From NCBI RefSeq assembly GCF_027913215.1, contig NZ_CP115784.1, positions 2,666,001 to 2,730,000 on the forward strand: 64,000 bases of DNA, in the 5' to 3' direction. The notes beneath the pieces are model-generated. The model saw only the letters and a list, made by a program, of their open reading frames with translations, searched no databases and had not been told where the DNA came from. This DNA comes from Paracoccus aerodenitrificans. GTDB lineage: Bacteria; Pseudomonadota; Alphaproteobacteria; Rhodobacterales; Rhodobacteraceae. The position numbers were made by a program, and so were the translations under genes. Of the stretch, positions 23,759-47,875 are shown one piece after another. The number at the start of each line of letters is the position of its first letter. The first letter of the stretch is position 1.

Positions 23759-25156
23759 TCAATCCGATATCAGCTTGCCGGGGTTCATCAGGCCCCCAGG
23801 GTCGATCAGGCGCTTGATGCCCTGCTGGATGGCATATTCGACATCCGACTTCTGGTCGCGCATCCGGTCGACAAAGACCGATCCGACGCCATGTTCGGCT
23901 ATGACCGAGCCGCCGAAGGACCAGATCAACTCGTCAATAGTCCGCAGGGTTTCTTGCTTCATCGTCTCGAACCCGGGCGTGGCAGGGTCGGCGAAGGCGC
24001 TGTAGTGCACATTGCCGTCCCCAACGTGGCTGACCGCGTAGGGCGTGGCGCCGGGGCAGGTCTCGGCGACCAGTGCATCGGCGCGGGCGATGAATTCGGC
24101 GATCCGGCCGACCGGGACCGAAACATCCCATTTTAGCATCGTCATGCCGGGGAAGTACTGGTGCGGCATCATCTGTTCGCGGATCTCCCACAGGTTGCGG
24201 TCCTGGGCAACCGACTGGGCAAGCACGCCGTCTGAGAATATGTCATCCTCAAGCCCAACCTCGAATAGGTCGAGCAGCATAGGCTCGACCTCGGCCGTAT
24301 CGGAAAGCCGGATCAGGACGCTCCATGGCGGAATCGTTTCGAACGGCCGACGCAGGTCAGGGTAACGCTCGAGTGCCATCGACACGCCCAACCCCGGCAG
24401 CAACTCGACTGCGCTTAGCAGGCGGCCGGCCTTGCGACGTGCTAGGATCATAAGGTCAGGCAGCCGGTTCAGGTCGGACAGGGCGACCATCATCGAGCGG
24501 TTGACCCTCGGCGCGGGATGCAGGCGGAAGACGATCCGCGTCACGATGCCGAGCGACCCTTCCGACCCGATAAATAACTGCTTGAGGTCATAGCCCGAAT
24601 TGTCCTTGGTGAGCGCACGCAACCCGTTCCATACGCGACCGTCCGGCAGCACGACCTCAAGCCCAAGCACCTGTTCCCGCGTGGTGCCGTAGCGCAGCAC
24701 GTTCAACCCACCGCCGTTTGTGCCGACCGCGCCGCCGACGGTCGCGCTGCCCCGTGCGCCCCAGTCCGGCGCGAACAGGAGGTCACGATCAAGCGCGGCC
24801 TCCTGCAGCGTCTGGATCAGGCAGCCGGCCTGCACCGTCACTGTCGCCGCCTGGGGATCGAGGGATTCGATCCGGGTCATCCGCCCGAGCGACAGCACCA
24901 CGGCCGGCAGAGTACCGGTCGGAACCGCCATTCGGCAAACATTGGTGTTGCCACCCTGGGGCACGACGGGAAGCGCTCGGTCGTGGCACATCCGCAGCAG
25001 GCGCGAGACCTCATCGGTCGAGGTCGGGCGTGCCACCATAAGGCAGGGTGCCTCGGCCTCGCCGTAAATATCAGAGGTGTAGGACCCGGCCTCGGCGGGT
25101 GGCAGGATCACGCCTTCCGGGAATTCCGACCGGAAACTCTGCAGGATTTCAGACAT
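23759..25156 (-). CDS. FAD-linked 2-hydroxyacid oxidase/dehydrogenase (GlcD/D-lactate dehydrogenase type)
   Basis: A 465-residue VAO/PCMH-family flavoprotein. The FAD-binding part shows VVPQGGNTNV, WGARGSATVGGAVGTNGGGL and KDNSGYDLKQLFIGSEGSLG. The C-terminal FAD-oxidase_C domain has VSHVGDGNVHY and SVIAEHGVGS, then the terminal IDPGGLMNPGKL. Relatives oxidise D-2-hydroxy acids (D-lactate, glycolate, D-2-hydroxyglutarate, D-mandelate) to 2-oxo acids. GGAGGAG precedes the ATG. It sits in the IS5-bracketed island, and a motif like those at the other catabolic promoters lies 114 bp upstream. I infer it feeds an aryl-2-oxo acid into the ThDP decarboxylase at 33700. Confidence 0.85.
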   Translation of the reverse strand: MSEILQSFRSEFPEGVILPPAEAGSYTSDIYGEAEAPCLMVARPTSTDEVSRLLRMCHDRALPVVPQGGNTNVCRMAVPTGTLPAVVLSLGRMTRIESLDPQAATVTVQAGCLIQTLQEAALDRDLLFAPDWGARGSATVGGAVGTNGGGLNVLRYGTTREQVLGLEVVLPDGRVWNGLRALTKDNSGYDLKQLFIGSEGSLGIVTRIVFRLHPAPRVNRSMMVALSDLNRLPDLMILARRKAGRLLSAVELLPGLGVSMALERYPDLRRPFETIPPWSVLIRLSDTAEVEPMLLDLFEVGLEDDIFSDGVLAQSVAQDRNLWEIREQMMPHQYFPGMTMLKWDVSVPVGRIAEFIARADALVAETCPGATPYAVSHVGDGNVHYSAFADPATPGFETMKQETLRTIDELIWSFGGSVIAEHGVGSVFVDRMRDQKSDVEYAIQQGIKRLIDPGGLMNPGKLISD

Positions 25157-25269
25157 ATCGACGGGTCTCCTCCGAATTGCACGGCTCGGGCGGGCAGATT
25201 GCCGAGCGCCAGTCGGCGATAGCTTTCATGGAAATACATTCTAGCATTTTACCCTCGGCGGCAATATAA

Positions 25270-25281
25270 TTAACGTGTTTA
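25270..25281. promoter_or_regulatory. Candidate HpaR-type operator upstream of the FAD oxidase gene
   Basis: TTAACGTGTTTA differs at one base from TTAACATGTTTA at 25893-25904. On the minus strand a TATAAT lies just upstream of it (25282-25287). It sits 114 bases before the FAD oxidase start. Weaker than the other three sites. Confidence 0.45.
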
Positions 25282-25871
25282 TTATATCCATAGGAGGACG
25301 CAAAGGAGGATCAGCCCGATAGAACCAACACCGGCATCGACACGACCGACCAGATCGCCGGATTGGCTTGGATGTCAGCGCTAGAGTCCAGCTGACCATT
25401 TCAAACGCATCTGGCCGTACCTGCAAGCTACAGGAGTAGTTGAGCCAATGGGTAGTCACCGACATCACCGCGGCGCCCGCGTTGCTGGCATTACCAAGTT
25501 GTTTTGTCGAGACTGATCGTCCCGACAGCAATCAAATCATGCCGTCGTTTCGTGGGCATAGTCGCTCGATAGCTTGAAAGCACCTGAATATCTTAACAGA
25601 CAGAATGGCGAATCGATAGTGCTGTGGGCAAGGCGCTGAAGCATCCGTACGTATAGCCAGATGGGATCGGAGGCTTGTAGGATAGCGGACGAACTGGTGG
25701 TCTTCCTCTTGACTGGCGGCTCGTTGAAACTGGCTCTCTGTGCGTCTCTATCTGAAATCATTCATAGATTCTTGATCCTCCTCTCCTTGTATGCATATCC
25801 AGGCAAGCTTGCACGGCAACGCCAGGCCCGGATGCTTTTTGAGTACTTTCGCGACAATTTTTCTTTCCTGT

Positions 25872-25904
25872 TTGACAGACCTTAAAAATTAGTTAACATG
25901 TTTA
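25872..25904 (+). promoter_or_regulatory. Promoter and candidate HpaR-type operator of the TAXI-TRAP genes
   Basis: TTGACA at 25872-25877 and TAACAT at 25894-25899 (16-base spacing) form a good promoter. The -10 lies inside GTTAACATGTTTA (25892-25904), whose exact reverse complement recurs upstream of the dioxygenase operon at 28957-28969. Repressor binding there would block polymerase. Confidence 0.7.
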
Positions 25905-25938
25905 TTGAATGGGACATATAGCTTAGGGAGGGCTACCC

Positions 25939-26931
25939 TTGAAATTCAGTTATTTGGCAGCCGCGTCGATCTTTGCCGTGATCGGAGCTCAACAACCTGC
26001 TCAAGCAGAGCTTAACAATATCACGATCGGTACGAACCCGTCAGGGTCATCATTCTTCGTGATCGGCAGCGGATTTGCGAAGCTATTTCAGGAAACACTG
26101 GGGATCAGATCAACGGCGCAGCCGTTTGCAGGTTCGTCGGTTTATCTGCCCGCCATCGAAGTGGGTGACATGACGCTGGGTCTGGCGTCTACGGTAGATT
26201 CGAGCCTCGCCTATACCGGAAGCAGCGACTATCCACAGGAGCTTACAAGACTTCGCGCAATCGCGAGCGTGTGGAACATTCCCTACGCTTTCATCACTCA
26301 AGCCAACTCAGGGATCATCACTGCTGATGATCTTGCCGGAAAGCGCATAATGGGCGACATGCCGGCATCTCAGGCACTGACCGAAATCAATAAAGCGATT
26401 GTCCAATCTGGCGGCTTGGGTCTCGAAGAGGTCGATTTCATGAGCAGCGGCGGCCTGATGGATGGGATCAGCGCTGTGGTTGAAGGGCGTGCAGATGCAG
26501 CCCCTGTTGCAACCTCAATGCCCGTCCTGCTGGAATCTCAGGCGTCGGTGTCGGGCGGACTAAGGATCGTTGCGAATGGCAGTCAAGGAAGCGACGAATT
26601 CTTTAGAACAGCAGTTGTCGGAGTAGGCGGAAACGTCGCGAAAGAGGACCCACAGCGGCCCTTCATAATCGGCGACACCGATATTGTTTCTTACGATACG
26701 TTGCTCGTAGCAAGCTCCGAAATGTCTGAAGAAGATGCGTATCTTCTTGCAAAAACACTCTATGAAAACTGGGGTAAGTTGCAGGAGAGTATGGGACAGC
26801 TTCGCAGCATCGACCAGAATGAAATTGCGTTGAGCTCTTCATCGATACCGTATCATCCGGGCGCAATCCGCTTCTACAAAGAGGTGGGTGTATGGACGGA
26901 TGCTCATGAAGAAAACCAGAGCAAATTCTGA
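25939..26931 (+). CDS. TAXI-family TRAP substrate-binding protein
   Basis: A 330-residue periplasmic receptor. The signal peptide ends near AQAEL. The TAXI-type mature start is NITIGTNPSGSSFFVIGSGF, followed by LGLASTVDSSLAY and DDLAGKRIMGDMPAS. The start codon is TTG at 25939 with GGGAGG eight bases before it. TAXI receptors pair with fused 4TM-12TM permeases such as the next gene. Its placement at the head of the dioxygenase region, behind the shared operator, suggests it imports the aromatic acid. Lower GC than the hpa genes. Confidence 0.88.
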   Translation: MKFSYLAAASIFAVIGAQQPAQAELNNITIGTNPSGSSFFVIGSGFAKLFQETLGIRSTAQPFAGSSVYLPAIEVGDMTLGLASTVDSSLAYTGSSDYPQELTRLRAIASVWNIPYAFITQANSGIITADDLAGKRIMGDMPASQALTEINKAIVQSGGLGLEEVDFMSSGGLMDGISAVVEGRADAAPVATSMPVLLESQASVSGGLRIVANGSQGSDEFFRTAVVGVGGNVAKEDPQRPFIIGDTDIVSYDTLLVASSEMSEEDAYLLAKTLYENWGKLQESMGQLRSIDQNEIALSSSSIPYHPGAIRFYKEVGVWTDAHEENQSKF

Positions 26932-27018
26932 TCTGTATCAATGGGTGATTGCTTTCGGACGGTTGTTCGGAAGCAATCCGAGGATGCAGCAAACTCGCTT
27001 CTCAAGGAGCAGCCAGCT

Positions 27019-28914
27019 ATGGATCGCATCAAAGACGTCATACTGACGTCGTGCCTTATTTTGTGCCCGGTTATCGGTGTATTATGGGCGCTTAATGTTC
27101 CACAAATGTTCGGCATGGGCCTTGTCACGCAGCAGGTCGTGGCAATCATGCTTGGAATAGCAGTATGTGCCGGACTTCTGTCTCACCCCTACTTCAAGCG
27201 CTACATCTGGATCGACGTAATCATCGCGATCATCGCCGCATTTTGTTGGTTCTGGTACGCGTGGAACTTTAGAGAGTGGATGGTCACGATGGCCTTCCGT
27301 ACACCAGATATGTGGATACCCGGTGCCATCGCATTGGTTTCGCTGGCTGAAGGCCTTCGGAAGACGATGGGGCTAATCATCGCAGCCCTGGTGTGGGTCA
27401 TCGCTGCCTACGGCTTTTTCGGAGACATGGTTCCCGGCATGCTGCAGGCCTCGGTTTTCGCGCCGACACGCACGATCATGTATCTTTATGCGGACAGCAA
27501 CGGTGTTCCTGGCCTGGTCATTACGGTCATTGTAACGCTTGTGCTGCCGTTCATGGTCTTCGGTAAAGTACTTGAGATCGCAAACGGAATGACCTTTTTC
27601 AACAACCTCGCGCTCTCAGCCGTCGGCCATCGTCGCGGTGGACCGGCCAAGGTCGCTATTGTTGCATCCGGATTTTTTGGGACCATGTCGGGTTCTACAG
27701 TTGCGAACATCATGTCGACGGGGATCTTCACGATTCCGATGATGATCCGGACCGGTATGACGCGGGTTCAGGCGGCTGCTATTGAGGCTGTTGCTTCGAA
27801 CGGTGGCCAGATTGCCCCGCCGATCATGGGAGCTACCGCCTTCATCATGGCCGAGATGTTGCAGGTGCCGTATTCAGACATCGTTAAAGCCGCAACCATT
27901 CCTGCCATTCTCTATTTTTTAACTTTGTTTTTCAAAGTCGATGCACTGGCGACCGCAAACGGACTTCAAGGTCTGGGTCGATCAGAAATCCCTTCCTTTC
28001 GTGAAACACTTAAAGGTGGATGGGAGATACTAATTTCCATCGGGGTTTTGCTATATCTCTTGTTCGCTACGGGATTTAACCCCGGACTTTGCGCTTTGAT
28101 TTCCTCTGGCATGATGCTCGTGGTCTATGCGATCAAGATTCGTTTCAAGTTTGATGTACCCGTACTGATCTCGGCAATGATTTCACTCGGACGAGAGCTT
28201 GCTCCGCTTCTGCTAATTGGTGGGGCCGCAGGTGTCATTATCGGCCTGATGAACTCGACGGGTTTTGCGTTTCAACTTTCCCTGGCGCTGACTCACATGG
28301 CAAGTGCATACGGCATTTTCGCACTGCTTCTGCTTTCGGCGCTTGTCGCAATTATCCTCGGTATGGGTATGCCGACGGCCGCTGTCTATATCGTCCTTGT
28401 CACGGTTGTTGCACCGACGATGATCGAGCTCGGCGTTGCACCCATGGCGGCGCATATGTTCCTTCTCTATTTCGGCCTGATGAGCATGGTTACGCCACCG
28501 ATCGCGATCGGCAGTATCGTCGCGGCACGGTTGGCCGAAGCGAATATGTGGTCCACAGGCTTTCTGGGTTTGCGGATTGGGATTGTCGCTTACGTCCTGC
28601 CATTTGTCTGGGCCTTCAATCCTGCGCTTCTCCTGGATGGCAGCATGCTTGAAGTTGCTATCGTGGCATCTAACGCTCTAGCGGGCTCTTATCTACTCAA
28701 ACTGTCGATGTTGCCATCGCCCATCATCGGCGTGCCAAGCTGGCTTTATGGCAAACTCATCATGGTTTTGGGATTGGCCGTCATGTCAGCCACTGCAATT
28801 TTCGGTTCTGCCAGTATCGCGGCCGTTGCGGCTACCATCGCCGCGATCCTATTGGCGATGATAATTTCAAAGCAGACAAGCCAGATACGACAGAAAGCCT
28901 CGACAGAAACCTGA
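27019..28914 (+). CDS. TRAP transporter fused permease (4TM/12TM)
   Basis: A 631-residue membrane protein: an N-terminal DctQ-like block (about residues 1-130) fused to a DctM-like block. Typical stretches are SGFFGTMSGSTVANIMSTG, ASNGGQIAPPIMGATAFIMA, LSALVAIILGMGMPTAAVYI and LMSMVTPPIAIGSIVAARLA. I chose the ATG at 27019 because AAGGAG lies nine bases upstream; an earlier in-frame ATG at 26941 has no such site. It follows the TAXI receptor gene by 87 bases, one operon. Confidence 0.88.
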   Translation: MDRIKDVILTSCLILCPVIGVLWALNVPQMFGMGLVTQQVVAIMLGIAVCAGLLSHPYFKRYIWIDVIIAIIAAFCWFWYAWNFREWMVTMAFRTPDMWIPGAIALVSLAEGLRKTMGLIIAALVWVIAAYGFFGDMVPGMLQASVFAPTRTIMYLYADSNGVPGLVITVIVTLVLPFMVFGKVLEIANGMTFFNNLALSAVGHRRGGPAKVAIVASGFFGTMSGSTVANIMSTGIFTIPMMIRTGMTRVQAAAIEAVASNGGQIAPPIMGATAFIMAEMLQVPYSDIVKAATIPAILYFLTLFFKVDALATANGLQGLGRSEIPSFRETLKGGWEILISIGVLLYLLFATGFNPGLCALISSGMMLVVYAIKIRFKFDVPVLISAMISLGRELAPLLLIGGAAGVIIGLMNSTGFAFQLSLALTHMASAYGIFALLLLSALVAIILGMGMPTAAVYIVLVTVVAPTMIELGVAPMAAHMFLLYFGLMSMVTPPIAIGSIVAARLAEANMWSTGFLGLRIGIVAYVLPFVWAFNPALLLDGSMLEVAIVASNALAGSYLLKLSMLPSPIIGVPSWLYGKLIMVLGLAVMSATAIFGSASIAAVAATIAAILLAMIISKQTSQIRQKASTET

Positions 28915-29012: not shown

Positions 29013-30386
29013 ATGTCCCATATGCAAAAGGCCGCTAACTATGTTGATTGGCGCCGGGGTCAGATCAGCCGTGAAATTTATGTCAGTGAGGAAGTCTATC
29101 GCCGCGAGCTGGAGACGCTGTTTACTCGTGCTTGGTTGTTCGTCGGACACGAATCTCAGATCCCAAATCCCGGCGATTTCTTTACGTCGCGCATGGGGGA
29201 AGAGTCGGTAATTCTGGTCCGCGACAAGGCTGGTGAGATTCATGTTTTCCTCAACAGCTGCCGTCATCGCGGCATGAAGGTCTGCCGATATGAATCTGGC
29301 AATACATCGCTATTTACATGTCCGTACCACTCGTGGACTTATACAACAGATGGACGCATCCGAGGGATCCCGCTTTATAAAGCGCTTTACGATGGGAACC
29401 TTGACCGGGATGAGTGGTCGCTGATCGAAGTTGCCAAGCTTCATAACTACAAGGGAACGATCTGGGCAACATGGGATCCGGAAGCGCCAGACTTCATGAC
29501 GTATCTGGGCGATGTAAAGGTTCACCTTGATCAGGCTCTGGATTGCCGAGACGGCCGCCCCGGCGGATCCGAGGTGATTGGTGTGCATAAATGGATTTTC
29601 CCGGCAAACTGGAAGTTCGCTGCAGAGAACTTCCTGGGCGACACCTATCATAATCCAAGCCATCGGTCTGTCGATATGATCGGGATTGGCCCCTCGGCAC
29701 TGGAGGGAGTGAAAGGTCGCCGTGACAACGAGTTGGAACAGGCTCAGCATGTATGGTGCAGCTTTCCCGCTGGACATGGAGTGCACTCGGCTGTTCAGCC
29801 GGAAGGCTATGAATTCGTTGATGCCTTCAAAAATGACCCGGAAATCGCCGATTACTTCCGTCATTGTCATGAGGAACGTAAGCGTCGGTTAGGCGAGCAG
29901 GCCCGGTTCTTGCCTTTCGTCGGTACTATCTTCCCGAACACGTCCTATCACGGGCGTCAGCCCCGCAGTCTCTGCACATGGCACCCCCACAGCGCGAATG
30001 AAACGGAAGGTTGGCGCTTCTTCCTAGTGGACGCTGATGCTCCGGCAAAGATCAAAGATTTTCTGCGCGGCTACTACATGCGTTATTCAGGTCCTGCAGG
30101 CATGACCGAACAGGATGACATGGAAAACTGGCTCTACGCGACCAATGCGTCTATGGGCACCATCGCGCGACGCCACAACTTCAACTACTCCCAGTCCATG
30201 GGCTCTAGTCAGTTGAATCCGATTGTTAACGGGATCGAGGTTAGGGGCGATGTTTCGCAGCAGGTGACCGAACACATGGCCGTGGGCTTCTATCGCCGTT
30301 GGGCAGATCACCTGGATATGCAGCCTTGGGACGTGTTGCTAGGTGGTGATGACGAGCGATTTGTCGAAACTATGGCTGCGCAATGA
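29013..30386 (+). CDS. Rieske ring-hydroxylating dioxygenase, large (alpha) subunit
   Basis: A 457-residue catalytic subunit. The Rieske cluster ligands are C83, H85, C103 and H106 (CRHRG and CPYHSW). The mononuclear iron site is in AAENFLGDTYHNPSHRSVD, with D210, H213 and H217; the two histidines are four apart. GGAGGA precedes the ATG. The SDR gene overlaps its stop by four bases; the beta subunit, reductase and ferredoxin follow. By context it probably dihydroxylates the ring of an arylacetate or its precursor to a cis-diol. 4-Chlorophenylacetate 3,4-dioxygenase (EC 1.14.12.9) is a known enzyme yielding homoprotocatechuate, but specificity cannot be read here. Confidence 0.9.
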   Translation: MSHMQKAANYVDWRRGQISREIYVSEEVYRRELETLFTRAWLFVGHESQIPNPGDFFTSRMGEESVILVRDKAGEIHVFLNSCRHRGMKVCRYESGNTSLFTCPYHSWTYTTDGRIRGIPLYKALYDGNLDRDEWSLIEVAKLHNYKGTIWATWDPEAPDFMTYLGDVKVHLDQALDCRDGRPGGSEVIGVHKWIFPANWKFAAENFLGDTYHNPSHRSVDMIGIGPSALEGVKGRRDNELEQAQHVWCSFPAGHGVHSAVQPEGYEFVDAFKNDPEIADYFRHCHEERKRRLGEQARFLPFVGTIFPNTSYHGRQPRSLCTWHPHSANETEGWRFFLVDADAPAKIKDFLRGYYMRYSGPAGMTEQDDMENWLYATNASMGTIARRHNFNYSQSMGSSQLNPIVNGIEVRGDVSQQVTEHMAVGFYRRWADHLDMQPWDVLLGGDDERFVETMAAQ

Positions 30387-31201
30387 ATACGGCGGGAGAA
30401 AAGCCGGAAAAAACCGTAATCGTGTCGGGAGCCACTTTCGGGATCGGCCATGAGATGGCTCTCTATCTGGCGCGTTCAGGTTTCCGTGTGGTGGGTTTTG
30501 GCCTTGAAAAAGCGCCTGTTTCCAGCGTGGCCGAAGCCTCTGTTGCGGATCTGAATTCGGCGGTCAAAGCCGAAGGTCTGAGCGCAGAGTTTGTTGCGGG
30601 GGATGTAACGAGCGAATCCGATGTTGAGCGTGCCGTCTCGAAGGCGCTGGAATATGGCGATGGAATCTTTGGTTTGGTGAACAATGCTGCCATCGGACCT
30701 TTGGGTACCATTCTCGATACCCAGCCGGACCTATTCATGCGTATTATGGAGGTAAACCTAAAAGGATCGTATCTTATGGCGCGGGCCGTTATTCCTCATA
30801 TGAGGGAGCGTGGCGGGGGACGCATCGTAAATATCGGGTCCGGTGCGGGTTGGGGGAAGCCCAATATGGCGGCCTATTCAACCAGTAAAGGTGGTCTCGT
30901 TGCGCTATCCAAGGCTATGGCTCTGGATCATTTTGCTGACGGGGTCGCCGTCAACACCGTGATCCCTGGAGGCGGCGGCATCATTTCGGGCATGAGTCTT
31001 GGGCGGGTCGCAGGCGATCAGGAAAAACTACAGTCCAAAGCAATCGGTACTGTCGCAGGACGCATCATGAACGGTTCTGACATGGCTGGGGCAGTCCGCT
31101 TTTTGTTGTCAGAAGAAGCCGCAGCCATCTCGGGCACAATCATTGATGTAGGATGTTTCGCGCATCAGGGGTCGTCGACACCACTGCCGAGACGTGCATG
31201 A
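30383..31201 (+). CDS. SDR-family dehydrogenase, probable cis-dihydrodiol dehydrogenase
   Basis: A 272-residue short-chain dehydrogenase. The cofactor motif is SGATFGIG (residues 15-22), NNAAIGPLG follows, and the active site shows NIGSGAGWGKPNMAAYSTSK with the YxxxK pair. The ATG overlaps the alpha-subunit stop and the beta subunit follows 15 bases after its end. Its insertion between the two dioxygenase subunit genes argues for oxidising the cis-diol product to a catechol. It is a classical-length SDR; NAD(H) versus NADP(H) is unresolved. Confidence 0.85.
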   Translation: MNTAGEKPEKTVIVSGATFGIGHEMALYLARSGFRVVGFGLEKAPVSSVAEASVADLNSAVKAEGLSAEFVAGDVTSESDVERAVSKALEYGDGIFGLVNNAAIGPLGTILDTQPDLFMRIMEVNLKGSYLMARAVIPHMRERGGGRIVNIGSGAGWGKPNMAAYSTSKGGLVALSKAMALDHFADGVAVNTVIPGGGGIISGMSLGRVAGDQEKLQSKAIGTVAGRIMNGSDMAGAVRFLLSEEAAAISGTIIDVGCFAHQGSSTPLPRRA

Positions 31202-31216: not shown

Positions 31217-31783
31217 ATGGACGCAATTGTCGAGACAAAGCGCATCCAGCGTGATGATGACTACTATTTGCTACGGCGCGAGATCGAGGAATATTACTAT
31301 GATGAAGCCGAACATCTAGACAACCGACGTTTCAACGAATGGCTCGACATGCTGCATGAAGACCTGCGGTACTTCATGCCCATGCGGCACAATGTGAAGT
31401 TCGGTCAACACTCAGAGCGCGAAGATACAAAAGAGGAATACGGCATCAGCTGGTTTAACGAAGATAAGTGGACCGTTACTAAGCGTGTCGAACAAATTCT
31501 CACTGGTGTTCACTATGCCGAAGAGCCGTTGTCACGCACCACGCATATGCTTACGAATATTCAGCTTCTCGAAGCTGATCCCTCTGCAGCGGAAGCTAGC
31601 GAGGTAAAGACCTCCTGTCGTTTTCTGACCTATCTGAATCGGGTGGAAACGGAGACCTACACTTTCGTCGGTAAACGCTACGACACGCTGCGGAAAGTAG
31701 ATGGCGCTTGGAAGGTGCTGCACCGCCGCATCATTCTGGACCAGAACGTGCTTCAGGCCAAAAACCTGTCAACGTTCTTTTGA
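31217..31783 (+). CDS. Ring-hydroxylating dioxygenase small (beta) subunit
   Basis: A 188-residue protein of the SnoaL-like beta-subunit fold. Recognisable are EIEEYYYDEAEHLDNRRFNE, WLDMLHEDLRYFMPMR, the SRTTHMLTNIQLLEAD block, and the C-terminal RYDTLRKVDGAWKVLHRRII. It has a structural role in the alpha3beta3 complex. AAGGAGG lies seven bases before the ATG. Length is normal. Confidence 0.9.
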   Translation: MDAIVETKRIQRDDDYYLLRREIEEYYYDEAEHLDNRRFNEWLDMLHEDLRYFMPMRHNVKFGQHSEREDTKEEYGISWFNEDKWTVTKRVEQILTGVHYAEEPLSRTTHMLTNIQLLEADPSAAEASEVKTSCRFLTYLNRVETETYTFVGKRYDTLRKVDGAWKVLHRRIILDQNVLQAKNLSTFF

Positions 31784-31806: not shown

Positions 31807-32004
31807 ATGGCAAAACTCGTACTTAATACCACAACCGACCTTCTTAAGGTTCCCGCAGGTGCCGGCATCAAACTTCATGATGGCCGGACCGGCAAAGTCG
31901 AAGAAAACATGGGGGACGGTCAATGGCTTAATGTACTCTTCGACGATGATGACATGGAGCTAGTCCATAGTCAGGATATCGCCGAAGTTCACGAGCCCGA
32001 GTAG
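31807..32004 (+). CDS. Small acidic protein of unknown function in the dioxygenase operon
   Basis: Sixty-five residues starting MAKLVLNTTTDLLKVPAGAG, with GRTGKVEENMGDGQWLNVLF and an acidic DDDDME patch. A strong ribosome-binding site (GGAAGGAGG) and tight spacing (23 bases after the beta subunit, 9 before the next gene) support it as real. The glycine-rich beta pattern suggests a small beta-barrel. I recognise no family. It could be an assembly factor or an accessory of the oxygenase; this is speculation. Confidence 0.65.
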   Translation: MAKLVLNTTTDLLKVPAGAGIKLHDGRTGKVEENMGDGQWLNVLFDDDDMELVHSQDIAEVHEPE

Positions 32005-36908: not shown

Positions 36909-37226
36909 ATGGTAAATATTACGTTCGTCGAGACTGACGGCACGGAAAGAAATGTCGAGGCTGAGGTGGGACTTTCGATTATGGAAGTTGCAACCCGAAA
37001 TAATGTTGCCGGTATCATCGCGGAGTGCGGAGGTCAGTGCTCCTGTGCAACCTGCCACGTCTATATTGAGGGCGCGTTCTTCGACAAGGTTGGTGAGCCC
37101 GTCGATGATGAGGAGGATATGTTAGACTTCTCAGAAAACCGTAAAGAAAACTCCCGTTTAGGTTGTCAGATCGAAGTTACAGATGATCTGGACGGTATGA
37201 CGGTACGTGTCGCGGAAGAAGAATAG
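36909..37226 (+). CDS. 2Fe-2S ferredoxin, adrenodoxin/putidaredoxin type
   Basis: A 105-residue ferredoxin. Cluster ligands are C40, C46, C49 (ECGGQCSCATCHVY) and C86 (SRLGCQIEV). The type matches the putidaredoxin-like reductase at 32439 and not a Rieske-type ferredoxin, which defines the oxygenase electron chain as reductase, plant/vertebrate-type ferredoxin, Rieske oxygenase. It is 28 bases after the aldehyde dehydrogenase. Confidence 0.9.
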   Translation: MVNITFVETDGTERNVEAEVGLSIMEVATRNNVAGIIAECGGQCSCATCHVYIEGAFFDKVGEPVDDEEDMLDFSENRKENSRLGCQIEVTDDLDGMTVRVAEEE

Positions 37227-40391: not shown

Positions 40392-41150
40392 TTAGAAACC
40401 TCCCCGCAACCGGCGCAATCCCGCGCCCAAAACACCCACATCGCTTCCAACGGCCAGAAACTCGATCCCAATATCGGCATATTTATGCGCCAGGCTCTGA
40501 GCAGATGTCAGAATGCCTGCGGCCCGGCCCGCCGCGCGGATACGGCTCAAGGCATCAAGGACGACCTCTTGAACCTCGGGTGCTTCCGGTTGGCCAAGAT
40601 AGCCCATATCGGCCGCTAGGTCGGCAGGACCTATAAAGATGCCATCGACACCTTCAACGGCCAGGATTTCGTCTAATGACTCGATGCCCAGACGACTTTC
40701 GATCTGCAGCAACAGGCAGATTTGGTCATTTGCGCTTTTAAGATAATCTGTGACCGCACCATAACCGGAGGCCCGGGCGAGCGCCGCTCCGATGCCTCGC
40801 ACACCATTTGGCGGATATAACACTGAACGCACCGCCTGCCGCGCCTGTTCGCCGCTTTCGATCATCGGGATCAGGATCGTCTGCGCACCTATATCCAGCA
40901 TCTGCTTGATCACTGCGCGATTGTCGTCGCGCACGCGCACCACCGGATGGCTGGCGCTGCCCACCGCGCGAAGCTGGGCCAATACGTCGCGCAACCCGTT
41001 GGGGCCGTGTTCGCCATCGATCACCAGCCAGTCAAAGCCGGTCCGGGCGGCCAGTTCTGCCGCCGATGGGTCGCCAAGCGCGACCCACAATCCGATCTGG
41101 GTGTCGCCCGATTTCAGGCGCTTCTTGAAACGGTTTTCAGGGGCGGGCAT
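40392..41150 (-). CDS. hpaI: 4-hydroxy-2-oxoheptanedioate aldolase
   Basis: A 252-residue HpcH/HpaI-family class II aldolase. Visible: VIDGEHGPNGLRDVLAQLRA (catalytic His/Glu region), RVRDDNRAVIKQMLDIGAQT, LLLQIESRLGIESLDEI and GIFIGPADLAADMGYLG. It splits 4-hydroxy-2-oxoheptanedioate into pyruvate and succinate semialdehyde, the last carbon-cleaving step of the homoprotocatechuate route. I chose the ATG at 41150 because TGAGG precedes it; one 15 bases upstream overlaps hpaH. Last hpa gene before the FAD hydroxylase. Confidence 0.9.
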   Translation of the reverse strand: MPAPENRFKKRLKSGDTQIGLWVALGDPSAAELAARTGFDWLVIDGEHGPNGLRDVLAQLRAVGSASHPVVRVRDDNRAVIKQMLDIGAQTILIPMIESGEQARQAVRSVLYPPNGVRGIGAALARASGYGAVTDYLKSANDQICLLLQIESRLGIESLDEILAVEGVDGIFIGPADLAADMGYLGQPEAPEVQEVVLDALSRIRAAGRAAGILTSAQSLAHKYADIGIEFLAVGSDVGVLGAGLRRLRGGF

Positions 41151-41157
41151 GGGAACC

Positions 41158-41961
41158 TCATTCAAAATTTATGGAAACCTGTCCAAACCCCCGGTAATCG
41201 GCACGAATTTCGGTGCCAGAGGGGCATTCGACCGGGCCGATAAAGGACCCGGACAATACGACTTGCCCGGCCTCGATCCGCTGGCCATACTGGCCCATGC
41301 GGCGCGACAGCCAGACCATGCCGGTGACCGGATCGTCCAGCACCGCCGCGCCAAGGCCGGTGGCCACCACCTGCGCATCGCGCTTGACGATGGCGCCGAC
41401 CCACCGCAGATCGACGCTGCCCGGGGCATGGCGCTGCGGACCCAGCACGATACCCGCATTGGCGGCATTGTCGGCCACGGTGTCAAAGATGCGGCGCGGC
41501 TGGCCGGTGGCGGGATCGCTGCGCATGACGCGGGTGTCGAGGATCTCGATGGCGGGCGCGACGGCCTCGGTCGCGGCCAGCACCTGATCGCGGGTCACAT
41601 CGCCCGTCAGCGGGGCCTTCATGATAAAGGCGATCTCGGCCTCGATCCGGGGCTGGATGAAACGGCCCGCGGGCACCGTCGCGCCATCGGCGAAATCCAT
41701 GTCGTCATACAGCACGCCCGAATCCGGCGTGTCGATGCCAAGCGCATCCTGCATCGCCTTCGAGGTCAGCCCGATCTTCCAGCCGATGATCCGGCGGCCC
41801 TGCGCCAGCTTCCGCGCCATCTGCGCGGACTGGATCGCATAGGCATCGTCCAGCGTGATGCCCGGATGGCGCTGCGACAGAAGGCCGATCTGGCGGCGCG
41901 TGGCCTCGGCCTCCAGCAGATCGGCGGCGGCGGTGTCGATGGCTTCGGGATCAAGGCTCAT
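41158..41961 (-). CDS. hpaH: 2-oxohept-4-ene-1,7-dioate hydratase
   Basis: A 267-residue hydratase of the MhpD/HpcG family. Characteristic blocks are LDDAYAIQSAQMARKLAQGR, IGWKIGLTSKAMQDALG, RIEAEIAFIM (metal-binding glutamates) and DNAANAGIVLG. It hydrates 2-oxohept-4-enedioate to the aldolase substrate. The ATG overlaps the hpaG stop by four bases, indicating coupling. Confidence 0.9.
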   Translation of the reverse strand: MSLDPEAIDTAAADLLEAEATRRQIGLLSQRHPGITLDDAYAIQSAQMARKLAQGRRIIGWKIGLTSKAMQDALGIDTPDSGVLYDDMDFADGATVPAGRFIQPRIEAEIAFIMKAPLTGDVTRDQVLAATEAVAPAIEILDTRVMRSDPATGQPRRIFDTVADNAANAGIVLGPQRHAPGSVDLRWVGAIVKRDAQVVATGLGAAVLDDPVTGMVWLSRRMGQYGQRIEAGQVVLSGSFIGPVECPSGTEIRADYRGFGQVSINFE

Positions 41962-42833
41962 TCGTCGGCCACCCCGTTGCGCAGGATGCCGATGCCTTCG
42001 GCCTCGATCTCGATCACATCGCCCGGCACCAGCCAGCGCGGAGGATCGAAGCGCGCCCCCGCCCCGGTCGGCGTGCCGCAGACGATCACATCGCCCGGCA
42101 CCAGCGTGCAGAAGGTCGAGACGTAGTTCACGATATAGCGGAAATCGAACATCATCCGGCTGGTGCGGTCCTGCTGGCGGATCTCTCCGTTGACGCGGGT
42201 GGTCAGTTCGATGTCGTCAAGCTGTCCCGCCTCGCGGAACGGCACCAGCCACGGCCCGATCGCGCCCGAGGCATCCCAGTTCTTGCCCTGCGTGACGTTG
42301 AATTTGGCATGGCGCACCCAGTCGCGGATGGTGCCTTCGTTGCACAGGCTCAGCGCGGCGATGTGGTCATAGGCATCCTCGCGCGCGATGCGGCGTCCGG
42401 ATTTGCCGATCACGATCACCACCTCGCCTTCATAATCAAGCTGCGGACTTTCCGGCGGGCGGATCAGGTTCTGGCCATGGCCGGTGAAGCTGCGCGGAAA
42501 GCGGATGAACATCGAGGGGCGGGGCGGAGCCTCTTGCCCGTCCTTGTATTCGGCATTGCGGTCGGGAAAGTTCACCCCGATGCAGATCAGCTTTTCCGGC
42601 GCGGCAATGGGGATCAGGAATTCCACCTGATCGCTGCGGAATGTGGGCGGGCGGCCCTTTGCTGCGGCGATCACCTGTTCCAGCGCGCCGGCCTCGACCA
42701 CCTGTTGCAGGCCGGCAAAGCGGGTGCCGAATTCCGGCGTCAGGTCGATGATGCCGTCATCGGTCACGACGCCATAGCGGTCTGCGCCATTGGCGCGAAA
42801 GGCGGCGATGCGGGCGGGGATCGGACGGGTCAT
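41958..42833 (-). CDS. hpaG: FAH-fold isomerase/decarboxylase of the homoprotocatechuate pathway, single-domain HpaG
   Basis: A 291-residue FAH-family enzyme. Metal ligands lie in LDYEGEVVIVIGKSGRRIA; LICIGVNFPDRNAEY, FIRFPRSFTGHGQNL and VCGTPTGAGARFDPPRW are family blocks. In E. coli HpaG is a tandem of two FAH units acting as decarboxylase and isomerase on the 5-oxopent-3-ene-tricarboxylate branch. Here only one unit is encoded, so one protein must do both steps or the partner lies elsewhere (the FAH protein at 11543 is a distant candidate). Confidence 0.85.
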   Translation of the reverse strand: MTRPIPARIAAFRANGADRYGVVTDDGIIDLTPEFGTRFAGLQQVVEAGALEQVIAAAKGRPPTFRSDQVEFLIPIAAPEKLICIGVNFPDRNAEYKDGQEAPPRPSMFIRFPRSFTGHGQNLIRPPESPQLDYEGEVVIVIGKSGRRIAREDAYDHIAALSLCNEGTIRDWVRHAKFNVTQGKNWDASGAIGPWLVPFREAGQLDDIELTTRVNGEIRQQDRTSRMMFDFRYIVNYVSTFCTLVPGDVIVCGTPTGAGARFDPPRWLVPGDVIEIEAEGIGILRNGVADE

Positions 42834-42845: not shown

Positions 42846-44294
42846 CTAGTTAATTCCGCCGAAGCAGAGATATTTCAGCTCCAGAAACTCCTCGATCCCA
42901 TGCCGCGACCCTTCGCGGCCCAGTCCCGACAGCTTGATCCCACCGAATGGCGCCTCGGCGGTTGAAATCAATCCGGTATTGATGCCGACCATGCCATATT
43001 CCAGCGCCTCGCCGACCCGCCAAGTACGGGACAGGTCCCGGGTATAGAAATACGAGGCTAGCCCGAATTCGGTATCGTTGGCCATGGCGACGACATCCGC
43101 CTCGTGATCAAAGCGGAACAGGGGGGCCAAGGGGCCGAAGGTTTCTTCGCGGGCAACGGCCATCGACTGGCTGACGCCTGTCAGAATAGTGGGTTCAAAG
43201 TAGTTTCCGCCCAGAGCATGCGGTTGGCCACCCAGAACCAACTGCGCCCCATTGCTTACGGCGTCTTCTATATGTTCCTGCACTTTTGCGACTGCGGCGG
43301 CATCGATCAGCGGACCGAAGACAGTTCCCGCCTCCATCCCGTCGCCGACTTTCAGCGAGGCCACCGCCGAGGCCAGCTTTTCGGCAAAGGCATCATGGAC
43401 CGATGACTGCACGTAGATGCGGTTGGCACAGACACAGGTTTGTCCGTTATTGCGGAACTTGGCGATTATGGCCCCTTCGACCGCCGCGTCGAGGTCGGCG
43501 TCGTCAAAGACGATAAAGGGGGCATTGCCGCCCAGCTCAAGGCTCAGTTTCTTCACCGTGCCCGCAGATTGCCGCATGAGTTCGACCCCTACCTCGGTCG
43601 AACCTGTGAAGGTCAGTTTGCGCACGGCGGGGCTTGCCGTCATCTCGGCCCCGATCGCGCGGGCCGAGCCTGTGACAACCGAAAACAGCCCTTTCGGAAG
43701 GCCCGCCCGTTCGGCCAGAACGGCCAGGGCAAGCGCCGAAAACGGCGTTTGTGAAGCTGGCTTCAGCACGATCGCACAGCCTGCGGCCAGTGCGGGCCCG
43801 ACCTTGCGGGTCACCATCGCGTTGGGAAAGTTCCATGGCGTGATTGCGGCAACGACGCCGATCGGCTGCCGGATGACCATCAGCCGCTTGTCTGGCTGAT
43901 GGCCGGGGATCGTTTCTCCATAGATGCGCCGCGCTTCTTCGGCGAACCATTCGATGAAACTGGCACCGTATAGTATCTCGCCCGTTGCCTCGGCCAGCGG
44001 CTTGCCCTGTTCCAGCGTCAGGATGCGGGCCAGATCGTCGGCATGCGCTACGACCAGGTCGTACCACCGCCGCAGGATGACCGCGCGCTCTTTCGCGGTC
44101 AGGGCCGCCCATGCAGGCTGCGCCTTTCCGGCCGCGGCAATGGCTGCCCGGGTTTCGCTGGCCCCCAGTCTGGGAACGTGGCCGATGACCGCGCCAGAGG
44201 CCGGGTTGTTCACCGCGATACCATTGGCATCTGCGGCAATCCATTTGTCCCCGATCAATGCCGCCTGACGCAGAAGGTTGCAATCCTTTGGCAT
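42846..44294 (-). CDS. gabD: Succinate-semialdehyde dehydrogenase-like aldehyde dehydrogenase
   Basis: A 482-residue ALDH. Catalytic residues are in TPWNFPNAMV, LELGGNAPFIVFDDADL and NNGQTCVCANR; the C-terminus GMVGINTGLISTAEAPFGGI then GLGREGSRHG is typical of GabD. Its place inside the hpa operon fits oxidation of succinate semialdehyde released by HpaI to succinate. High GC like hpaG and hpaH. Confidence 0.88.
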   Translation of the reverse strand: MPKDCNLLRQAALIGDKWIAADANGIAVNNPASGAVIGHVPRLGASETRAAIAAAGKAQPAWAALTAKERAVILRRWYDLVVAHADDLARILTLEQGKPLAEATGEILYGASFIEWFAEEARRIYGETIPGHQPDKRLMVIRQPIGVVAAITPWNFPNAMVTRKVGPALAAGCAIVLKPASQTPFSALALAVLAERAGLPKGLFSVVTGSARAIGAEMTASPAVRKLTFTGSTEVGVELMRQSAGTVKKLSLELGGNAPFIVFDDADLDAAVEGAIIAKFRNNGQTCVCANRIYVQSSVHDAFAEKLASAVASLKVGDGMEAGTVFGPLIDAAAVAKVQEHIEDAVSNGAQLVLGGQPHALGGNYFEPTILTGVSQSMAVAREETFGPLAPLFRFDHEADVVAMANDTEFGLASYFYTRDLSRTWRVGEALEYGMVGINTGLISTAEAPFGGIKLSGLGREGSRHGIEEFLELKYLCFGGIN

Positions 44295-44304: not shown

Positions 44305-45285
44305 TTACGGCGCGATGATCGGGCTGGCCTTCAGCCCGCTTTCGCTGGGTGCGACCCCCTGGAACAGCGAACCATGTTCGAACCACGACCGCGGCGCGGG
44401 CGCCCCCCACAGGGTCTGTCGCTGCGGGTCCTTCAGGTCCCATTTGATCGCCTCGAGATCCGGGTCCACGGTCTGATAGTCCGAGCAATATATCTCGATC
44501 CGGTGGCCGTCGGGGTCGAGGACATACAGGAAGAAGGCGTTGGAAATCCCGTGCCGTCCCGGGCCGCGTTCGATGCTGCCGACATAGCCGGTCGTCGCCA
44601 TCAGATCGCACAGGTCGATGATGTTCAGCGGTGTCGGCACCCAGAAGGCGGTGTGGTGCAGGCGCGGGCCGGTGCCATTGGTGAAGGCAATGTCATGCAC
44701 GCCGCCCTTGCGATGGGTCCATGCCGCCCACAGACGGCCGGTTTCCTCATCCTCGGTATATTCCGTCACGCGGAACCCGATCTGGTTGTAGAAATCGACC
44801 GCCGTGTCGACATCGGTGGCAAAGCAGTTGAAATGGTCGATGCGCAGCGGCTTGACGCCCTTGTACAGCGCGTATTTCTGATGGATAGGCGGCAGGCGGT
44901 CCATCCTGAAATAGAACTCGATCGGCATGCCGAAACAGTCATGGGTGCGCAAAGTACGGCCCTGATAGGCGCGCTCGACCCATTCGACCTTGTGCCCCTG
45001 ACCCTTGAACCAGTCATGGGCCTTGTCCAACTCGCCCTCGTCAAAGACCTTGAAGGCAAGGCTGCGGACATTCGATTCATCGGATTTGCGCAGCACCATG
45101 CAGTGATGGCCGCGTTCCTCCATCGCGCGCAGGAAGATGTGGTCGTCATCCTCGTCGGTGACCTGCAGGCCCAGCGTATCGACATAGAAGGCACGGCTGG
45201 CGGCAAGATCTTTCACGCCGAAAACGACATGGGACAGACGGATGACGTTGAAGGGCGGATACAGGTTCGGGGCCGGAATGGGCAT
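44305..45285 (-). CDS. hpaD: 3,4-dihydroxyphenylacetate (homoprotocatechuate) 2,3-dioxygenase, extradiol type I
   Basis: A 326-residue vicinal-oxygen-chelate enzyme. Iron ligands are H151 (LRIDHFNCFATD), H210 (RLHHTAFWV) and E264 (HRIEIYCSDY); the spacing is close to that known for the Brevibacterium homoprotocatechuate enzyme. It opens the ring of homoprotocatechuate to 5-carboxymethyl-2-hydroxymuconate semialdehyde. GGAGGAG precedes the ATG at 45285. E. coli HpaD belongs to the unrelated LigB fold, so this is the type I version of the pathway. Confidence 0.92.
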   Translation of the reverse strand: MPIPAPNLYPPFNVIRLSHVVFGVKDLAASRAFYVDTLGLQVTDEDDDHIFLRAMEERGHHCMVLRKSDESNVRSLAFKVFDEGELDKAHDWFKGQGHKVEWVERAYQGRTLRTHDCFGMPIEFYFRMDRLPPIHQKYALYKGVKPLRIDHFNCFATDVDTAVDFYNQIGFRVTEYTEDEETGRLWAAWTHRKGGVHDIAFTNGTGPRLHHTAFWVPTPLNIIDLCDLMATTGYVGSIERGPGRHGISNAFFLYVLDPDGHRIEIYCSDYQTVDPDLEAIKWDLKDPQRQTLWGAPAPRSWFEHGSLFQGVAPSESGLKASPIIAP

Positions 45286-45323: not shown

Positions 45324-46835
<1,512 letters not shown>

Positions 46836-46847
46836 GCGGTGTTCCTT

Positions 46848-47237
46848 TCAGCCTTTGCCCGACAGGCGGGCATGGATGGGGGTGTTCTTCCAGCTGAGAT
46901 CCGGATCGGCGACCCGGATTTCCAGCGAGAGGGCGAAATGCGGCGTCGCCAGCGGCCGGGCCAGCGCGGCTTCGGCGGCGGCCATGATCTGCTGACCGGC
47001 GCGGGCCAGCGCATCCTTGCTGCGGCCTGCGCCGACGATCAGCGTCAGCGCGGCAAAGTCGTTTTCCGGCAGGCCGTCGGCCACGATCGCATGATCGGCG
47101 GCATAGGCGCGGATGCGGATGCCCGCCTGAGGAAAGATTCCGGCCTCGTTCATGGCCCGGTGCAGCGTCCGGCAGAGGGCGGGAATGTCAGCCCGCCCCT
47201 CAAGCCCGCGCGAATATTCGATCCTCAGATGTGGCAT
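46848..47237 (-). CDS. hpaF: 5-carboxymethyl-2-hydroxymuconate isomerase
   Basis: A 129-residue CHMI-family tautomerase. It begins MPHLRIEYSRGLEGRADIPA, so the catalytic Pro follows the initiator Met, as in the tautomerase superfamily; LEIRVADPDLSWKNTPIHA is the family C-terminus. First gene of the hpa operon. GGGGGGAGG precedes the ATG, with the shared operator motif 22 bases upstream of it. Divergent from hpaR. Confidence 0.9.
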   Translation of the reverse strand: MPHLRIEYSRGLEGRADIPALCRTLHRAMNEAGIFPQAGIRIRAYAADHAIVADGLPENDFAALTLIVGAGRSKDALARAGQQIMAAAEAALARPLATPHFALSLEIRVADPDLSWKNTPIHARLSGKG

Positions 47238-47258
47238 CAGCCTCCCCCCTCTATTTAC

Positions 47259-47289
47259 TTAACATGTGAAATATATTGATTCGTGTCAA
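47259..47289 (-). promoter_or_regulatory. Promoter and candidate HpaR operator of the hpa operon
   Basis: On the minus strand TTGACA (47289-47284) precedes ACATGTTAAGT. The core TTAACATGT (47259-47267 on +) is the same nine bases found upstream of the TAXI and dioxygenase genes. The site is between hpaF and the divergent hpaR, the expected place for HpaR control. Confidence 0.7.
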
Positions 47290-47416
47290 GGCTGGATTGG
47301 AGCTGTACTCAAACCGGCTATCTAAACAGCCGGGTTCTATCCATCTAACCCATATTCCTTGCCATTTCCCGCAATCTGTAACATGTTCAGAAACTATCTC
47401 GGGAAGCGACAACTGC

Positions 47417-47875
47417 ATGAATGACACATCTCTCCGCGACGGCTTCGAGTTCGCTAAAACGCGGCGCAGCCTCCCAATGGCTCTGCTGATGGCTCGTGAA
47501 GCTGTAATGGAACGCTTTCGCCCCATGCTAAACGCGCAAAATGTCACCGAACAACAATGGCGAGTCCTGCGGGTACTAAGAGAAGTAGACATAGCAGATG
47601 CTTCGGCTCTGGCACGGATGGCTTGCGTACTGCCACCTTCGCTGACACGAATTCTTCGCGCGTTGCAGGATCGTGGCTTTGTTGAAACCCGCCGCGACCC
47701 CAGTGATGGTCGTCGCGCCAAAATAGCCCTGACCGACGCCGGACATAGCTTCATCAACGCAGTCTCTCCCCAGAGCGCCGCTATCTATGCAGAAATCGAA
47801 AACCTTGTGGGTCCCGAGCGCATCACCGCACTGCTCGATGAGATCGAGTTCCTATATAACACTTTAAATAACTGA
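47417..47875 (+). CDS. hpaR: MarR-family regulator of homoprotocatechuate degradation
   Basis: A 152-residue winged-helix regulator. The helix TEQQWRVLRVLREVDIADAS, recognition region MACVLPPSLTRILRALQDRG and wing RRDPSDGRRAKIALTDAGH match the HpaR group. Such proteins repress the hpa operon and release DNA when an aromatic pathway compound binds. It is divergent from hpaF across a 179-base gap that contains the operator motif. Confidence 0.88.
   Translation: MNDTSLRDGFEFAKTRRSLPMALLMAREAVMERFRPMLNAQNVTEQQWRVLRVLREVDIADASALARMACVLPPSLTRILRALQDRGFVETRRDPSDGRRAKIALTDAGHSFINAVSPQSAAIYAEIENLVGPERITALLDEIEFLYNTLNN

Follow-up and report, generated by a model that had tools for sequence, protein, structure and literature searches.

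A Rieske dioxygenase cassette beside a homoprotocatechuate operon in Paracoccus aerodenitrificans: a possible dihydrodiol entry to meta-cleavage within an insertion-sequence bracket

The DNA considered here is a 64-kb window (positions 2,666,001 to 2,730,000 of contig NZ_CP115784.1; this whole stretch is called the window throughout) of the 3.56-Mb genome of Paracoccus aerodenitrificans, which is 99.98% complete. In it, a cassette of peripheral genes built around a Rieske dioxygenase lies next to an operon for the meta-cleavage of homoprotocatechuate (HPC; 3,4-dihydroxyphenylacetate). The cassette and HPC genes span 23.8–47.2 kb, and two HpaR-type regulators extend the set to 49.2 kb. The segment is believed, with somewhat better than even confidence, to be a transferable catabolic cassette that feeds HPC into the meta-cleavage operon, both being placed under one HpaR-type operator. 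HPC itself is very probably the common product of the peripheral genes, a conclusion drawn from recurrent linkage in other genomes, the HpaR-type regulators and the window's own operator-like sites. An earlier note on this DNA had proposed a pathway from an aryl-2-hydroxy acid through HPC to central metabolism; its central idea of one functional set ending in HPC is borne out by the linkage, the shared operator, the HpaR-type regulators and the absence of HpaB and PaaA from the host genome, though the route it drew left out a flavin monooxygenase (FMO).

In the proposed route, transporters of the TRAP (tripartite ATP-independent periplasmic) and MFS (major facilitator superfamily) types would import an aromatic acid, a GlcD-type flavin adenine dinucleotide (FAD) dehydrogenase would convert a D-aryl-lactate to the arylpyruvate, a thiamine diphosphate (ThDP) enzyme would take this to the arylacetaldehyde, and an aldehyde dehydrogenase (ALDH) would yield the arylacetate. 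The Rieske dioxygenase, receiving electrons via an FAD reductase and a Fer2-type ferredoxin, would then place both oxygens onto carbons 3 and 4 of an unsubstituted arylacetate, and the resulting cis-dihydrodiol would be rearomatised to HPC by a short-chain dehydrogenase/reductase (SDR); a mono-hydroxylated analogue would be ortho-hydroxylated to HPC by the FMO. HpaD, HpaE, HpaF, a HpaG-like protein, HpaH, HpaI and succinate-semialdehyde dehydrogenase (SSADH) would carry HPC to pyruvate and succinate. All reactions upstream of HPC, and their order, are predictions from gene content. The start proposed earlier, from D-aryl-lactate through arylpyruvate to arylacetate, would fit the GlcD, ThDP and ALDH genes and is not settled; whether these three genes shorten a C3 side chain is judged an even question, and the chance that the Rieske enzyme acts on the arylacetate and not on an earlier acid is put marginally below that.

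The entry route may be new. The broader proposal, which is tentative and held at less than even confidence, is that an undescribed family of Rieske arylacetate (or aryl-C3-acid) 3,4-dioxygenases, recognisable by an HX3H iron site and in many cases accompanied by two small conserved proteins (orf65 and orf138), forms a dihydrodiol entry to HPC in Proteobacteria and Actinobacteria; in this strain it would have come under the operator of the HPC regulator, and a pair of insertion sequences (IS) would have mobilised the segment that holds it and the rest of the pathway. If true, this would give a function to a Rieske group whose nearest relatives, where named, bear generic names, and the HPC pathway would gain an entry through a dihydrodiol in a genome without HpaB and PaaA. 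Peripheral and central pathway would be joined within one IS-bracketed segment, and the DNA word TTAACATGTTAA could be used to locate further HPC entry modules.

Linkage of Rieske cassettes to HPC genes

Scanning the genome collection with the Rieske alpha subunit returned 222 relatives, the best 80 of which were kept as loci. The gene order in L003, L004 and L007 is MarR, GlcD, TAXI, TRAP, MFS (in L004), alpha, SDR, beta, orf65, orf138, ferredoxin reductase (FdR), ThDP, ALDH and Fer2, and L005 has the order of L003 except that ALDH comes after FMO on the other side. GlcD, TRAP, the Rieske unit, ThDP, ALDH and Fer2 are found in 4/4 of these closest cassettes and FMO in 3/4, lying beside the cassette in L003 and L007. 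Among all 80 loci, FMO relatives of at least 53% identity occur in 20, and HpaE-like genes of at least 43% identity lie in the fetched flanks of nine (L010, L020, L046, L062, L065, L067, L068, L077 and L078). HpaG1 and HpaG2 are present in the flank of L071, and in L013 and L016, which are both of the loci that were extended, HPC genes lie directly past the fetched end on the same contig.

Several of these loci bring the two units into close contact. L020, from Aquabacter spiritensis, carries on one strand HpaF, HpaE, HpaD, a protein of the fumarylacetoacetate hydrolase (FAH) family, HpaH and HpaI, followed by a GlcD-type gene (40%), Fer2, FdR, alpha, SDR, beta, orf65 (27%) and orf138. In L078, from Achromobacter kerstersii, the Rieske core, SDR and FMO stand with HpaG1, HpaG2, HpaE, HpaD_Fe and HpaH, all of the Hpa proteins scoring above curated cut-offs, and in L077, from Alcaligenes endophyticus, a LigB-type HpaD (381 bits to 8iq8) adjoins the Rieske core, with ThDP, ALDH, FMO, HpaG1, HpaG2, HpaE, HpaF and HpaH in the same 21 kb. 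L068, from Variovorax gossypii, holds ThDP, FMO, the Rieske core, HpaG1, HpaG2, HpaE, HpaD, HpaF, HpaH, HpaI and SSADH; L010, from Nocardia, holds relatives of HpaD and HpaE (42 and 52%). At greater distance, the HPC operon of an Acinetobacter (L013/L105) lies about 12 kb from the Rieske alpha gene, and one contig of Bradyrhizobium mercantei (L016/L104) carries HpaE, HpaD, FAH, FMO and a GlcD-type gene (41%), with some 14 kb between HpaE and Rieske alpha. The linked groups differ in their transporters (TRAP or tripartite tricarboxylate transporters), in their reductases (FdR with Fer2, or BenC-like) and in the type of HpaD; for this reason the association of Rieske and HPC genes is inferred to have been assembled more than once.

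This recurrence bears on the simplest alternative, in which the genes are unrelated neighbours brought together by insertion sequences. The segment is indeed IS-rich, its two blocks differ in GC content, and the closest relatives have HPC operon and cassette on different contigs; nevertheless the linkage recurs in other genera and in another phylum, and each of the separated units of the L003 and L007 genomes has the shared DNA word ahead of it. Unrelated juxtaposition was therefore dropped and is regarded as very improbable.

A shared operator-like word

The palindrome TTAACATGTTAA is common to intergenic stretches of both units, occurring before the HPC operon, GlcD, the transporter and the Rieske genes. 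The ten-base core TTAACATGTT has two exact copies in the window, where 0.04 are expected, and these lie ahead of TAXI and Rieske alpha; sites with one mismatch precede GlcD, HpaF and HpaR, and one more is found at 51635, outside the segment. Loci L003–L086 (1.54 Mb) contain seven exact TTAACATGTT sites, and every one precedes genes of a cassette or of hpa: L003, L004 and L007 contribute two apiece, and the seventh stands ahead of the HpaF operon in L020.

A matrix was built solely from hpa-promoter sites of other genomes (nine sites, all exact word matches, with near copies among them in the L106 and L110 pairs), and its scores in the window (Table 1) were set against 20 shuffles that moved the bases two at a time and reached a maximum of 15.0. 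The fifth match, inside HpaR, scores 17.0 and also exceeds this maximum. The TAXI and Rieske promoters are the two best matrix matches in L003, L004 and L007 as well. The test is not blind, since the word had first been seen by eye in both units and the matrix came from exact-word sites. HpaF of the separate HPC operon has the word before it as well in the L003 and L007 genomes (L106 and L110, respectively), so that the word precedes both separated units in 2/4 of the closest relatives. HpaR or the second MarR regulator is the predicted binder of the word TTAACATGTTAA.

Substrate and order of the proposed route

The host genome gives no match to PF11794 (HpaB) and none to PF05138 (the PaaA/PaaC epoxidase). 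With HpaB and PaaA being the only entry enzymes searched, the HPC-forming candidates in the window are the Rieske/SDR pair and the FMO. HPC as the meeting point is well supported, because linkage is seen in seven genera, the counts of HpaE agree with it, the palindrome is shared, and HpaB and PaaA are both missing from the host. The HpaE search covered 72 of the 80 Rieske loci, leaving out L006, L009, L021, L025, L027, L029, L030 and L034; 24 of the 72 were hand-picked, including loci already seen with hpa genes, and 48 were the remainder. HpaE above the curated cut-off was found in 42/72 Rieske-carrying genomes (18/24 and 24/48 in the two parts) versus 14/289 members of the class, the host included. 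Its absence at L046, L067 and L071 may reflect contig ends.

The 72 loci further differ in the genes that accompany the oxygenase, with SDR in 50, orf65 in 38 and orf138 in 42. HpaE is present in 41/50 genomes with the SDR and in 1/22 without it (Fisher p 3e-10, confounded by kinship). Loci with no SDR nearby (L037, L040–L045, L053, L059, L069 and others) come mostly from Acetobacteraceae/Rhodopila, and 21/22 of these genomes are without HpaE; this SDR-less Rieske group probably has another substrate or reaction.

A number of findings weigh against the reading given above. ThDP genes of at least 46% identity occur in just 11/80 loci, and no arylpyruvate decarboxylase is found among the 60 of 151 PDB matches listed for the ThDP enzyme. 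When the tree is taken into account, the association of SDR with HpaE is not significant (three independent pairs, with a mean of 2.1 in agreement and 0.0 in opposition) and is only suggestive, as the tree yields just three independent comparisons. Four other genomes of the class have a more distant Rieske relative (54–67% identity) without HpaE; together with the SDR-less loci (HpaE in 1/22), these indicate that the Rieske family has other uses. Within 26 genomes picked from the HpaE-positive, Rieske-carrying ones, PaaA is present in 22 and HpaB in 11, and a new route for phenylacetate or 4-hydroxyphenylacetate is therefore not generally needed there. No site with at most one mismatch to the word precedes HpaF in the HPC operons L108 and L109 (which belong to the L004 and L005 genomes), the cassette sites of L005 are weak (best 14.4 against the shuffle maximum of 15.0), and no such site is present in L010, L013, L016, L033, L035, L062 or L068, so that other sites or regulators would act in loci lacking the word. 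Lastly, HpaI, HpaF and the HpaG-like protein all miss their NCBIfam cut-offs, for which reason these names rest on homology and operon position. Of the full HpaD, E, F, G, H and I route with SSADH that had been claimed, HpaD, HpaE, HpaH and SSADH pass their NCBIfam cut-offs and HpaF passes its Pfam cut-off, but HpaG and HpaI fall below theirs; being of the right superfamilies and in the right order, these two may still work as such.

The PaaA count makes plain phenylacetate unconvincing as the sole Rieske substrate, since 22/26 of the relatives with HpaE hold PaaA. This would be explained if the ring were attacked first: the Rieske enzyme with the SDR, or else the FMO, would hydroxylate a C3 acid (phenyllactate or phenylpyruvate, for example), and the dihydroxyphenyl chain would be shortened to HPC afterwards by GlcD, ThDP and ALDH. 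Phenylacetate would then never be formed, and a cassette could be kept beside PaaA. Such an order uses the same gene set and gives the same product, and the ThDP gene adjoins FMO or lies one gene away in L033, L035 and L077. However, there are Rieske-SDR-HPC loci, L020 and L078 among them, whose fetched flanks contain no ThDP gene; there, either the Rieske product is already cleavable or ThDP lies elsewhere, and this order of events is considered unlikely.

The same separability of the Rieske and ThDP modules across loci could point to several entries under one regulator, in which the Rieske enzyme takes a substituted phenylacetate or other aromatic acid, and the substrate of ThDP, ALDH and GlcD is a separate one with only the HPC funnel in common. 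The cassette holds two transporter types, and the HPC operon of a congener (G008) has different neighbours that come with the same word. In that genome (L091–L093, joined 21527–39754) the HPC operon lies beside TRAP relatives, with a sulfatase-like gene (recognised by eye) behind it and, ahead of it, ALDH, a GMC-like gene (by eye), a DctM-type TRAP permease and TTAACATGTT at L093:2796; these neighbours are possibly another HPC entry module. Set against several entries is the closely packed, co-directional run of Rieske, ThDP and (in 3/4) ALDH genes in the four closest cassettes, and this arrangement is thought rather doubtful, if a little less so than ring attack before chain shortening.

Gene content, known systems and origin of the segment

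Every enzyme family named in the earlier note is present in an open frame where that note had placed it, as judged by profile matches and motifs, and this includes the Rieske dioxygenase, reductase, ferredoxin and diol dehydrogenase at 29013–37226. The inventory was sound for the genes it named and overlooked the TAXI-TRAP transporter, orf65, orf138, MFS, FMO, HpaR, the second MarR gene, the operator and the IS bracket (Table 1).

Table 1. Features of the segment, with the profile scores, motifs or matrix scores on which each assignment is based
Feature	Position	Strand	Basis
Left IS copy, 846 bp, "IS5-like" (our own label)	20990..21835	-	transposase open reading frame 21012-21632; DDE_Tnp_1; imperfect terminal repeats
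GlcD-type FAD D-2-hydroxyacid dehydrogenase	23759..25156	-	PF01565+PF02913; best PDB relatives 3pm9 and D-2-hydroxyglutarate dehydrogenase
Operator-like site before GlcD, TTAACGTGTTTA	25270..25281		matrix rank 3 in window, score 23.3
Operator-like site before TAXI gene, TTAACATGTTTA	25893..25904		rank 2, score 25.5
TAXI-family solute-binding protein	25939..26931	+	TIGR02122 above cut-off
Fused TRAP permease	26941..28914	+	TIGR02123 above cut-off
Operator-like site before Rieske alpha, TAAACATGTTAA	28957..28968		rank 4, score 19.8
Rieske dioxygenase alpha, HcaE/BphA branch	29013..30386	+	PF00355+PF00848; Rieske and iron-ligand motifs intact
SDR, presumed cis-dihydrodiol dehydrogenase	30383..31201	+	PF00106
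Rieske dioxygenase beta	31217..31783	+	PF00866 115 bits; NF007479 194.6 bits, cut-off 145
orf65, conserved 65-aa protein	31807..32004	+	no Pfam or NCBIfam name
orf138, conserved 138-aa protein	32014..32430	+	no family name; AlphaFold model pLDDT 88.4
FAD ferredoxin reductase (FdR)	32439..33707	+	PF07992+PF14759
ThDP enzyme, PRK08266 group, presumed 2-oxoacid decarboxylase	33700..35379	+	639.6 bits, cut-off 571; ThDP motif, RHEQ glutamate
Aldehyde dehydrogenase (ALDH)	35384..36880	+	PF00171; ELGGK and GQVC motifs
[2Fe-2S] ferredoxin, Fer2 type	36894..37226	+	PF00111; four cysteines
MFS transporter	37349..38590	+	nearest aromatic-acid/H+ symporters, 69 bits, far under cut-off
Flavin monooxygenase (FMO), PRK06126 group	38621..40294	-	648 bits, cut-off 445; 97 bp behind HpaI, co-directional with hpa
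HpaI-type 4-hydroxy-2-oxoheptanedioate aldolase	40392..41150	-	TIGR02311 345 bits, cut-off 369 (missed)
HpaH hydratase	41158..41961	-	TIGR02312 357 bits, cut-off 351.5 (passed)
FAH-family protein in HpaG position	41958..42833	-	PF01557; TIGR02303 170 bits, cut-off 276 (missed)
Succinate-semialdehyde dehydrogenase (SSADH)	42846..44294	-	NF008415 831 bits, cut-off 828 (passed)
HpaD 3,4-dihydroxyphenylacetate 2,3-dioxygenase, glyoxalase/VOC type	44305..45285	-	TIGR02295 425 bits, cut-off 321
HpaE dehydrogenase	45324..46835	-	TIGR02299 777 bits, cut-off 638
HpaF isomerase	46848..47237	-	PF02962 (CHMI) 136 bits, cut-off passed; NF011605 69 bits, cut-off 215 (missed)
Operator-like site before HpaF, TTAACATGTGAA	47259..47270		rank 1, score 27.2
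Weaker operator-like site before HpaR	47378..47389		score 11.3, inside shuffle range
HpaR, MarR family	47417..47875	+	TIGR02337 148 bits, cut-off 121.2
Second MarR regulator, HpaR-like	48725..49210	+	TIGR02337 109.8 bits, under cut-off
Right IS copy, IS5-like, 846 bp	49208..50053	-	99.5% direct repeat of 20990-21835

The genes from Rieske alpha to the ferredoxin are tightly spaced on one strand, and two pairs overlap by a few bases. In the alpha subunit the Rieske motif CxH-x17-CxxH is present (CRH...CPYH), and the iron site DxxHxxxH (HX3H; residues 210–217) is shared by the window and all 80 relatives, in 73/81 by pattern and in the other eight by eye. It is one residue shorter than the aligned site of HcaE (HX4H) and two shorter than that of biphenyl dioxygenase (HX5H). 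A 2-His-1-carboxylate set is completed by D368 or D369, assigned by conservation only. Where the nearest database relatives of this Rieske group are named, among the best 120 of 3851 matches, the names are generic. The ThDP enzyme belongs to an acetolactate-synthase-like group, PRK08266. PDB relatives of the FMO include RebC, RdmE, 2,4-dichlorophenol 6-monooxygenase and 2-hydroxybiphenyl 3-monooxygenase, some of which are phenol ortho-hydroxylases by name.

The closest known system in the oxygenase branch is HcaEFCD/HcaB, the 3-phenylpropionate/cinnamate dioxygenase of E. coli, which likewise combines alpha and beta subunits, an FAD reductase and an SDR that rearomatises the diol. The window proteins do not reach the HcaE and HcaF equivalog cut-offs (NF042946, 350 of 830 bits; NF042947, 129 of 230 bits), and, apart from the shorter iron site, the cassette differs in that its product would enter HPC cleavage. 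The hca ferredoxin is of the Rieske type, and that of the window is of the Fer2 type. A Rieske-type enzyme leading to HPC is also known in 4-chlorophenylacetate 3,4-dioxygenase of Pseudomonas CBS3, which takes a phenylacetate to HPC, is not known to have a beta subunit and needs no diol dehydrogenase because chloride leaves; the window unit differs from it by its beta subunit and its presumed diol dehydrogenase. In the mandelate pathway, a 2-hydroxyacid dehydrogenase, a ThDP decarboxylase and an aldehyde dehydrogenase (MdlB, MdlC and MdlD) act in series, and the same series of enzymes is seen here, though it would need to handle a side chain one carbon longer and has a ThDP enzyme of the PRK08266 group.

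The HPC (hpa) meta-cleavage pathway is classically entered via HpaBC. No description of a Rieske entry to HPC was found among the papers listed by searches of the openly licensed PMC literature, which is weak evidence of absence; on that basis, enzyme families and a central pathway that are both known would be joined here by an entry module for which no description was found. The classical pathway shares HpaD, HpaE, HpaF, HpaH, HpaI, SSADH and HpaR with the window, whereas the host has no HpaB, has one FAH-family protein where L078 has HpaG1 and HpaG2, and would enter the pathway by Rieske/SDR and FMO. For P. xenovorans, the classical pathway is touched on in PMC10983741.

Rieske oxygenases with MarR regulators are also found in another arylacetate pathway, the iad/iac degradation of auxin. 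Degradation of indole-3-acetate, raised by the Variovorax and Bradyrhizobium carriers, was rejected as 7yls, which we take to be the iad oxygenase, scores far below the structures of HcaE and BphA (118 bits to the window's alpha subunit versus 295 bits for biphenyl dioxygenase). Going by their listing, PMC9613470 and PMC10374108 deal with the iad/iac Rieske genes.

GC content is 0.49–0.56 at 25–41 kb and 0.62–0.67 at 41–47 kb, giving two composition blocks, of which the low-GC block is the Rieske cassette and the high-GC block the HPC operon. In a set of 61 genomes of relatives, Rieske alpha is found at E 1e-100 in one, the host, which stands alone among 37 of its genus, and HpaD at E 1e-60 in four, all within the genus. 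The congener G008, with 96% identity in HpaD, has the identical HPC order from HpaF to HpaI and a MarR gene, with no Rieske relative and with an HpaI that is just 55% identical. By this distribution the HPC operon belongs to a small number of strains within the genus, and the cassette appears to have been acquired. Inheritance of cassette and HPC operon in one piece is unsupported, given that L003, L004, L005 and L007 have their HPC genes on other contigs; these separate stretches carry HpaF, HpaE, HpaD, FAH, HpaH and HpaI for L003, L004 and L007, no HpaI was seen in the stretch of L005, and relatives of HpaI and SSADH adjoin the cassette of L004.

The boundaries of the cassette reach past the low-GC block. 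GlcD has a GC3 (GC at third codon positions) of 0.80 compared with 0.46–0.60 for the genes from TAXI to FMO, and it was considered as a native neighbour; this was rejected, because its best match among 40 other genomes of the genus has 43% identity and it occupies the same place at 56–60% in all four closest cassettes. The enzyme therefore belongs to the set, as the earlier note had it. At the other end, the second MarR gene has 57–64% identity to the cassette MarR of L003, L004, L005 and L007 and is probably the cassette's own regulator, so that cassette genes flank the HPC operon on both sides. Between HpaR and this gene, the stretch 47876–48724 is of low GC and holds a 156-aa open reading frame (48265–48735) without a Pfam family.

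The cassette and HPC operon are bracketed by two direct 846-bp IS copies, 28,218 bp from start to start, in the arrangement of a composite transposon, that is, two copies of one IS around cargo. TA adjoins all four ends of this inner pair, inner and outer ends alike, a pattern as compatible with movement of the segment in one piece as with other histories, and the boundary of the right copy coincides with the stop codon of the second MarR gene. The inner bracket is itself nested inside an outer pair of a different IS (3109–4653 and 57505–59049; 1545 bp, 99.9% identical, with a DUF772/DDE transposase). Directly to the left of the inner bracket lies a diverged inverted repeat pair (12544–13221 / 20217–20792; 75–82%) with DDE_Tnp_IS240 fragments. 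Also outside the inner bracket, 14236–19996 is a separate small catabolic cluster with a second TRAP transporter (DctP, DctM), a cyclase-family protein, a beta-keto acid cleavage enzyme and an SMP-30-like protein.

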